A stretch of DNA of 64,000 bases from Chloroflexota bacterium (GTDB taxonomy: Bacteria > Chloroflexota > Anaerolineae > Promineifilales > Promineifilaceae): assembly GCA_013112725.1 (NCBI GenBank), contig JABFFZ010000021.1, positions 1 through 64,000 on the forward strand, read 5' to 3'. The notes beneath the pieces were generated by a model that ran no database searches, was not told the origin of the DNA, and was given only the letters and a program-made list of their open reading frames with translations. This document shows, one piece after another, positions 4,914 through 56,052 of this stretch. Positions within the stretch are counted from its first letter, which is position 1, and each line of letters starts with the position of its first letter. Position numbers and translations under genes: made by a program.

Positions 4914-4933
4914 TTCTTATCAAGAATATAACC

Positions 4934-4974
4934 ATTCAGACCTGACAGATTTTGGAAACCTGTCAGGTTTGAAT
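4934..4974. repeat. Palindrome with ACCTGTCAGGT arms
   Basis: An imperfect inverted repeat (ATTCAGACCTGACAG and CTGTCAGGTTTGAAT around a short loop) lies upstream of the HEPN-like gene. A perfect version of the same core occurs at 42673-42705 between the two permease genes, so it is a dispersed intergenic palindrome. Confidence 0.7.
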
Positions 4975-5002
4975 GGGGATGGGGTGAAGGTCTGCATGGA
5001 TT

Positions 5003-15906: not shown

Positions 15907-15966
15907 CTTTTTGGAGATTGAGAGATCGGGAGATTGAATCTCTTAATCTCCCGATCTCTCAATCTC
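15907..15966. repeat. Tandem-word inverted spacer (word GGAGATTGA)
   Basis: GGAGATTGAGAGATCGGGAG is mirrored by CTCCCGATCTCTCAATCTC. It separates the DUF4129 and DUF58 genes and includes the TGA stop of DUF58 (15959-15961). Confidence 0.85.
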
Positions 15967-19359: not shown

Positions 19360-19391
19360 GGCGGGGAAGTATAAGGGAAGACGGCCGTTTC

Positions 19392-19497
19392 GTCACCCGA
19401 CGTCCGTCATCCGTCATTCGTAATCCGACTACGGGTGACGGGTGACGAGTGACGAGTGACGGGTGACGCATCACGGGTCACTCGTCACTCGTCACGG
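19392..19497. repeat. Tandem-word inverted spacer (word GTGACGG/GTGACGA)
   Basis: Five 7-nt units of GGTGACG/AGTGACG are followed by complementary CGTCACT units. The final RDE and TGA stop of the ADP-ribosylglycohydrolase are encoded by the word. A related CCGTCAT/CCGTAAT stretch precedes it. Confidence 0.85.
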
Positions 19498-20397: not shown

Positions 20398-20676
20398 TCA
20401 CTGCCTGGATAGCATACGCTGTAAAAGCATTTGCATCAAATGTTCGTCACTTATGCCAGGGAAGTTTTCGATAATGGCGGTATACGCATCCATCGTAATG
20501 ATTATAGCTACAGCAACTTCAAAGGTTGCCTGCTCCTCTTTGAGAGGGTAACCGTTCAGTTCCTCTAGAGACTTGACAAGTTTTTGTGCCTGAATAGCGG
20601 CAACCGCCTCTGGTAATAAACTTGTCAAGTCTGAACGCGCTGTTACGTTTGATCTGATTTCAGCGGTAAAAGTCAA
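20398..20676 (-). CDS. Hypothetical protein containing palindromic-element sequence
   Basis: The C-terminal 45 residues (KEEQATFEVAVAIIITMDAY to MLLQRMLSRQ) look like real protein. The middle (SDLTSLLPEAVAAIQAQKLV) is the in-frame translation of the 95-bp palindromic element found at two other loci. No convincing start is visible: a TTG at 20676 is possible, and the upstream frame overlaps the lipoprotein gene. It may be the 3' part of a gene whose start was lost, or a protein that has absorbed the element. The stop lies 4 bases from the ADP-ribosylglycohydrolase start. Confidence 0.4.
   Translation of the reverse strand: MTFTAEIRSNVTARSDLTSLLPEAVAAIQAQKLVKSLEELNGYPLKEEQATFEVAVAIIITMDAYTAIIENFPGISDEHLMQMLLQRMLSRQ
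20548..20646. mobile_element. Palindromic element, copy A
   Basis: It starts GTAACCGTTCAG and ends CTGAACGC followed by a 4-base insertion and TTAC; internal arms are GACTTGACAAGTTT and AAACTTGTCAAGTC. It is close to identical with the copies at 35953-36047 and 55879-55973, with the same orientation in the window. No target duplication is visible here. Confidence 0.85.
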
Positions 20677-30099: not shown

Positions 30100-30339
30100 A
30101 TGAGCGACAATTGGATTCGGGCAAGCGAAATTTCCACCTATCTCTACTGCCGCCGCGCCTGGTGGCTGAAACGCAAACAGGGCGCACAGCCGCAAAACGT
30201 CCACGAGTTACAAAAAGGGACGGCGTATCATCGGCAACACGGCCGTGTCGTCGTCCAATCTATCTGGGCGCGGCGCGTGGCATACCTGCTGCTATTTGTC
30301 ACGATAGCCCTTTTTGTCTATCAGTTGGTAATTGGGTAA
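30100..30339 (+). CDS. Cas4-like PD-(D/E)XK nuclease, N-terminal part
   Basis: This 79-aa product has SEISTYLYCRRAWWLKRKQG, the N-terminal cysteine helix of Cas4-type nucleases, then an HRQHGR segment and a transmembrane helix (VAYLLLFVTIALFVYQLVI). The stop is supplied by a TAATTGGG-type spacer. The catalytic acidic residues and the other three cluster cysteines are in the next frame, at 30387-30923. The two pieces look like one iron-sulfur nuclease gene split by a repeat. It is not adjacent to cas genes or a CRISPR array. Confidence 0.72.
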   Translation: MSDNWIRASEISTYLYCRRAWWLKRKQGAQPQNVHELQKGTAYHRQHGRVVVQSIWARRVAYLLLFVTIALFVYQLVIG

Positions 30340-30375
30340 TTGGGTAACTAAGTAATTACCCAATTACCCAATTAC
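30327..30375. repeat. Tandem-word inverted spacer splitting the Cas4-like gene
   Basis: TAATTGGGTAATTGGGTAAC is mirrored by TAATTACCCAATTACCCAAT. It lies exactly between the two halves of the Cas4-like nuclease. Confidence 0.88.
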
Positions 30376-35952: not shown

Positions 35953-36047
35953 GTAACCGTTCAGTTCCTCTGGAGACTTGACAAGTTTTTGTGCCTGAAT
36001 AGCGGCAACTGCCTCTGGTAATAAACTTGTCAAGTCTGAACGCTTAC
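35953..36047. mobile_element. Palindromic element, copy B
   Basis: This 95-bp copy starts GTAACCGTTCAG and ends CTGAACGCTTAC. It matches copy C at 55879-55973 at nearly every base. The flanking octamers differ (CTATCGTC and TTCCGGAC), so no target duplication remains. Confidence 0.88.
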
Positions 36048-42659: not shown

Positions 42660-42672
42660 CTTGCGCGCGTTC

Positions 42673-42705
42673 AGACCTGACAGGTTTCCGAAACCTGTCA
42701 GGTCT
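42673..42705. repeat. Perfect 15-bp palindrome between permease genes
   Basis: AGACCTGACAGGTTT and AAACCTGTCAGGTCT flank a CCG loop. It is related to the imperfect copy at 4934-4974. It lies inside a presumed operon, so it may act as an mRNA-processing or stabilising hairpin. Confidence 0.85.
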
Positions 42706-42722
42706 TAAAGGCGTGAACATTC

Positions 42723-43784: not shown

Positions 43785-43788
43785 TTAA

Positions 43789-43863
43789 TTGAGAGATTAA
43801 GAGATTAAGAGATTAAGAGATTGAGGGACTATTAATCTCCTGATCTCTCAATCTCCCAGTCTC
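43789..43863. repeat. Tandem-word inverted spacer (word AGAGATTA)
   Basis: Four 8-nt AGAGATTA units are followed by complementary TTAATCTCC, GATCTCTCAATCTCC units. It lies between permease and ATPase genes of the iron cluster. Confidence 0.88.
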
Positions 43864-55186: not shown

Positions 55187-55693
55187 TTATGGCCTTTGAC
55201 AGTATAGCTTGCCCCCTTGAACGCGCACGATCGAGGCAATGTCATCCAGATAGCGCAAGGATTGACTATCTGCATAAGCTCGTAACTTGGCGATCACGGC
55301 CGAATCAGGGGGGGGGATGTAAGCAGCGCGACACATCTCATCAAAAGGTAGATAAGTGCGTTCGGCAATCATAGCGCGAAGTTCTGGCTCAATCGGGATA
55401 TAAAAGTCTATCTTGATATGGTAATACAAGTGAATGACGTTAAAAAAACTGCCACTTAAAGCGCGTTGGACGGCTATTTCATCTACGTGATAATGTGCTT
55501 CTTGCAGGCGACGCACAAATAACGATACAGTAAATTTTTCTGGACTGAGCAAAACATCCATATCCTGCGTAAAACGAGGTTCATCATGGGCGACTACAGC
55601 AATTCCTCCCCATAGAGCATGAACTGCGCCTATAGCTTCCAAAACATCAATAACACCACCAAATGCCTGGATTTGATCGAACTTTGGAGACAT
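55187..55693 (-). CDS. Nucleotidyltransferase-fold protein (AbiEii/DUF6036-like)
   Basis: The protein is 168 aa from the ATG at 55693 (MSPKFDQ). ALWGGIAVVAHDEPRFTQDM followed by DVLL matches the glycine-rich turn and DxD of minimal nucleotidyltransferases of the AbiEii/MNT type. The C-terminal half is helical. Relatives are toxins of bicistronic systems or standalone nucleotidyltransferases. The small interrupted gene upstream on the same strand (55764-56052) could be its partner. Reading upstream to 55828 adds residues without family character. Confidence 0.72.
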   Translation of the reverse strand: MSPKFDQIQAFGGVIDVLEAIGAVHALWGGIAVVAHDEPRFTQDMDVLLSPEKFTVSLFVRRLQEAHYHVDEIAVQRALSGSFFNVIHLYYHIKIDFYIPIEPELRAMIAERTYLPFDEMCRAAYIPPPDSAVIAKLRAYADSQSLRYLDDIASIVRVQGGKLYCQRP

Positions 55694-55763
55694 GGCTGGT
55701 TTATTCGATTCCTTAAACACCAAAAACAAGTCGGTGTGTCTCGCGGTCAACTCTTTCGGCAGG

Positions 55764-56052
55764 TCAGTCGGGGTGGTCTTCAGCCAGTATGAGACGCTTT
55801 TGGCGTAAAGCAAAATCGGCAGCAGCAAAGGCCATTTCGTTTTTTTTAGCTACCGATAGTTTTCGCAATTGTTTAATCGTAACCGTTCAGTTCCTCTGGA
55901 GACTTGACAAGTTTTTGCGCCTGAATAGCGGCAACTGCCTCTGGTAATAAACTTGTCAAGTCTGAACGCTTACGTTCAATCAATCTCCAATTGATGGATT
56001 CATATTTATTTCTATGAGTTTCCATACCTGTTGAAAAAGATGAGTTATTCAT
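55764..56052 (-). pseudogene. Small gene interrupted by palindromic element
   Basis: The 5' part has an AAAGG site and ATG at 56052 and reads to KYESINWRLI before the element. The 3' part (to TGA at 55764) reads QLRKLSVAKKNEMAFAAADF and ends ILAEDHPD. The two are in different frames. Removing the 95-bp element plus one 8-bp target copy joins them in frame as NWRLI-(E/K)-QLRKLSV, giving a protein of about 61 residues. As it stands the frame ends within 59 residues. The gene lies just upstream of the nucleotidyltransferase gene and could have encoded its partner. Family not recognised. Confidence 0.75.
55879..55973. mobile_element. Palindromic element, copy C, with 8-bp target duplication
   Basis: The 95-bp element starts GTAACCGTTCAG and ends CTGAACGCTTAC. 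It is flanked by GTTTAATC (55871-55878) and GTTCAATC (55974-55981), a target duplication with one mismatch. Inner arms are GACTTGACAAGTTT and AAACTTGTCAAGTC. Confidence 0.88.

Follow-up and report, generated by a model that had tools for sequence, protein, structure and literature searches.

The 95-bp palindromic element at positions 55879 to 55973 of the window (the whole 64,000-nucleotide stretch of DNA analyzed, from contig C21 of a 5.5-Mb genome that is 83% complete) is, with a probability of roughly 0.92, a non-autonomous MITE of the IS66 family, moved by an IS66 transposase of the genome and inserted at this site with an 8-bp target duplication. It has the features that define a MITE, being short and multi-copy, bounded by terminal inverted repeats, accompanied by target-site duplications of fixed length (8 bp) and devoid of a transposase gene. 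It also has the main features of an IS66 origin, namely, ends of the GTAAGCG/GTAACCG type and the 8-bp duplication.

The element lies on the minus strand, which reads GTAAGCGTTCAG...CTGAACGGTTAC. Its 12-bp terminal inverted repeats, GTAAGCGTTCAG (55962 to 55973, minus strand) and GTAACCGTTCAG (55879 to 55890, plus strand), differ from each other by one mismatch. The flanking octamers, GTTCAATC on the plus strand (GATTGAAC on the minus strand) at 55974 to 55981 and GTTTAATC (GATTAAAC on the minus strand) at 55871 to 55878, match at 7 of 8 bases. The element, its ends and its octamers had all been described in the initial annotation and were recovered here. Two further copies occur in the window, both on the minus strand: a second full-length copy at 35953 to 36047, 98.9% identical, and a third at 20548 to 20642, whose GTAAGCG end is disturbed. 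Neither is flanked by a target duplication, and only the copy at 55879, hereafter copy C, keeps one. The source genome holds dozens of copies, a number to be read as a lower bound, and most of them lie outside long open reading frames (ORFs). The close relatives in which this kind of element occurs are, without exception, metagenome assemblies of Anaerolineae/Chloroflexi.

The initial annotation had taken the octamers as a sign of mobility and proposed examining the flanks of every copy for 8-bp duplications. Exact 8-bp flanking repeats are present in 35 of the 60 end-intact copies of this genome, while shuffled pairings of the flanks would yield 0.66; with up to one mismatch allowed, the count rises to 46 of 60 (0.8 in shuffled pairings). 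In the same set, repeat lengths of 5 to 7 and 9 to 12 give 0 or 1 exact matches. At the level of the family, this excludes a chance origin of the 8-bp repeats and is the mark of transposition with a stagger fixed at 8 bp. Among relatives, exact 8-bp repeats flank 11 of 16 copies; a partly overlapping set, drawn from named assemblies, gives 15 of 32. The same counts bear on the idea that the element is a REP-like or terminator-like extragenic hairpin that spread by other means and lies between octamers by coincidence. Its strong fold, its position mostly outside long ORFs and the conservation of its arms through paired changes would suit such a hairpin; against it stand the 35 exact duplications and the precise insertion inside a gene described below, which make it very improbable.

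The interrupted gene also bears on the insertion at 55879. Its front part (MNNSSFSTGMETHRNKYESINWRLIE) occupies 55974 to 56052 and its rear part 55713 to 55870, both on the minus strand. Once 103 bp (the element plus one octamer) are taken out, ...NWRLI and EQLRKLSVAKKNEMAFAAADF... lie in a single frame, as the initial annotation had proposed on the basis of a frame shift of one, and the emptied site reads continuously as MNNSSFSTGMETHRNKYESINWRLIEQLRKLSVAKKNEMAFAAADFALRQKRLILAEDHPD. At the DNA level, this emptied site can be aligned to intact genes of two related genomes along 137 bp with no gap (73% identity in G003 and 71.5% in G050), whereas the unjoined DNA aligns to them in pieces only. 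The empty site sought by the initial annotation therefore exists at the level of homologous genes in related genomes. That annotation had also named the situation that would speak against it, relatives in which the element is present and the two halves are never joined; none was found, and in seven related genomes the homologues run uninterrupted across the junction. Together with the family-wide duplications, these uninterrupted homologues bear out the mobility of the element.

The description of the host as a small gene held only in part. The two frames do join, but what they form is the remnant of a larger gene rather than an intact small one. The homologues are about 155 to 200 amino acids long and possess a front domain that is missing from the window gene; a search of the rest of this genome did not find it either. 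Moreover, a conserved tryptophan codon (TGG) of the homologues is a TGA in the window (55764 to 55766), beyond which recognizable in-frame homology (PAERVDRETHRLVFGV) persists down to 55713. The missing front domain and the TGA with homology beyond it identify the window gene as a decayed remnant, and the insertion thus need not have caused the loss of the gene. Downstream lies an AbiEii-like nucleotidyltransferase (55187 to 55693, minus strand), probably shortened at its end. The same order, homologue followed by AbiEii-like nucleotidyltransferase, occurs in the related genome G047, where the nucleotidyltransferase gives a weak Pfam match, below the cut-off.

One frame of the MITE stays open over its full length. 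It is read through in a 59-amino-acid ORF at copy C and likewise in several more copies, as would be expected if the element added a translated segment to proteins in the manner of the Rickettsia palindromic elements, short palindromic inserts in coding sequence that are in frame and translated (PMC10969869). However, the substitutions among copies comprise 20 silent and 40 replacing changes, with about 19 silent changes expected under neutrality, which leaves no trace of coding constraint. The open frame contains a stop in 13 of 48 copies, and the 103-bp insertion shifts the host frame. We therefore reject a coding function for this frame and consider a translated segment of the Rickettsia kind the least probable of the alternatives, close to negligible. 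The element does resemble the Rickettsia elements in being a short palindromic insert found in coding sequence, but it differs from them in shifting the frame and in evolving neutrally. At three loci (L023, L001 and L010, each at 1501 to 1595), copies sit just upstream of genes, with the open frame of the element fused to the downstream frame; the downstream gene in L023 is a glycyl-tRNA synthetase-like ORF.

The link to IS66 comes from the ends of the element. Three contigs of this genome break at an identical point, 367 bp inside one IS66, which at each of the three contig ends starts at GTAACCGTTCAG with different flanks; this is how a multi-copy insertion sequence appears in a short-read assembly. 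A truncated IS66 transposase on contig C6, 55% identical to that of the same-genus genome G002, likewise ends 12 bp from GTAACCGTTCAG, which lies directly past the transposase C terminus. The MITE end GTAACCGTTCAG is identical to that of the multi-copy IS66, an identity that covers one end only. The other end of this IS66, and any complete IS66 with matching ends, were not found in the incomplete assembly, and pairing IS66 left flanks to right ends via duplications gave no match. The second MITE end finds its counterpart in G002, which harbors an intact 1,570-bp IS66 (L134) with GTAAGCGTTCAGTTGG at both ends; GTAAGCGTTCAG, identical to the MITE end, forms both of them. Published IS66 ends start with GTAAGCG and are flanked by 8-bp repeats (PMC11946415). 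Furthermore, the G/C difference between the two MITE ends is that of a published IS66 end pair, GTAAGCGTCCGG / GTAACCGTCCGG (PMC12888890). Other IS66 elements of these genomes (L031, L133 and L138) were set aside; their ends are of the GTAACTA type, and they are less close to the MITE.

The sequence common to the MITE and IS66 amounts to only about 12 to 14 bp per end, less than the 20- to 30-bp ends of typical IS66. This short match, and the lack of a readable complete IS66 with matching ends in the genome, would leave room for a transposase from a different family with 8-bp duplications of its own. Such a transposase is nevertheless improbable in view of the 12-bp ends, which recur unchanged on IS66 elements of this genome and of a same-genus genome, and of the GTAAGCG/GTAACCG asymmetry known for IS66. 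The single mismatch in the duplication of copy C is a further point against the IS66 reading. The absence of a transposase and movement in trans, both claimed in the initial annotation, agree with an IS66 in the genome bearing the same 12-bp end, and we infer that its transposase moves the MITE. In the mechanism that we propose, the DDE transposase of an IS66 located elsewhere in the genome would recognize the common 12-bp ends (GTAAGCGTTCAG / GTAACCGTTCAG), cut the target with a stagger and insert the MITE; repair by the host would then turn the staggered cut into the 8-bp duplication. At 55879, the insertion hit the coding frame of a gene, or of an already decaying remnant, beside the AbiEii-like nucleotidyltransferase, and the frame moved by one base as a result (95 + 8 = 103).

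Inside the element, two complementary 15-bp arms, AGACTTGACAAGTTT (55900 to 55914, plus strand) and AAACTTGTCAAGTCT (55949 to 55963, plus strand), are separated by 34 nucleotides. Both strands of the MITE fold strongly (z of about -5 to -7), as expected of any inverted repeat. Across 24 diverse copies, 99.7% of the arm pairs are kept, and both-sided changes occur at 4 of the 15 arm positions, with almost none when the partner is slid; these paired-change counts are inflated by relatedness among the copies. The subfamily cores ACTTGACAAGT, ACCTGACAGGT or ACCTGCGAGGT are matched between arms except for a few G-U pairs. Since a change in one arm is matched in the other from subfamily to subfamily, the hairpin seems to be maintained, and the pattern suggests a putative maintained hairpin or paired binding site, retained presumably for its importance to the element. 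It is more doubtful, though conceivable, that the double palindrome, whose half-sites changed in pairs while the loop diverged, is a working part of the element and not filler. If so, the palindrome could form a hairpin, or a site bound by a protein, for transposition or host use, and a functional palindrome may be spreading across Anaerolineae with these MITEs. An Rfam search with the element returned no credible match.

Compared with insertion sequences of the IS66 family (single-ORF transposase type, such as the G002 element), the MITE has the same GTAAGCGTTCAG / GTAACCGTTCAG ends and 8-bp duplication but no transposase and an unrelated interior. It is reminiscent of MITEPsy1 of Pseudomonas syringae, a 100-nucleotide element with a 4-bp duplication, tied to the IS5-like ISPsy2 (PMC3189936): both are about 100 bp long with terminal inverted repeats and no gene, enter genes, shift the frame and have ends in common with an insertion sequence of the genome. 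They differ in the length of the duplication, 8 bp for the present MITE, and in the associated family, here IS66. Neither IS66 nor Chloroflexi appears in a 2024 review of prokaryotic MITEs, and we found no description of IS66-derived or Chloroflexota MITEs in the literature searched; this may be the first IS66-derived MITE family described. An abundant repeat of uncultured Anaerolineae is thereby tied to a likely transposase family, a link that would aid genome annotation and account for disrupted genes and gaps in assemblies. The MITE could likewise serve as a small model for studying the recognition of minimal ends by IS66 transposases. No copies were found in viral contigs or plasmids.

Other palindromes and repeats were seen in the window and at further loci. 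Two hairpins at 42670 to 42708 and 4932 to 4976 share a related AGACCTGACAG core beside degenerate TTCAG-type ends, without duplications, and are probably old, eroded members of the MITE superfamily. Stand-alone hairpins AGACCCTTCGGGTTT...AAACCCGAAGGGTCT (L032, 430 to 475 and 955 to 1005) show the AGACC...GGTTT layout of the MITE without GTAAGCG ends, and these genomes may hold a broader palindrome family whose cores vary. In the assemblies of two different species, BJ8 and ACE_CHL11, the same element is found next to the same left octamer, GACCGGCT (L142, 685 to 709, and L152, 5366 to 5390), possibly one insertion inherited by both. Finally, the window contains short-motif repeats arranged in inverted clusters (GTGACGAGTGACGG, GTAATTGGGTAATT and GAGATTGAGAGATT) at 19391 to 19495, 30328 to 30375, 43788 to 43863 and 15914 to 15966, which are unlike the MITE in kind.
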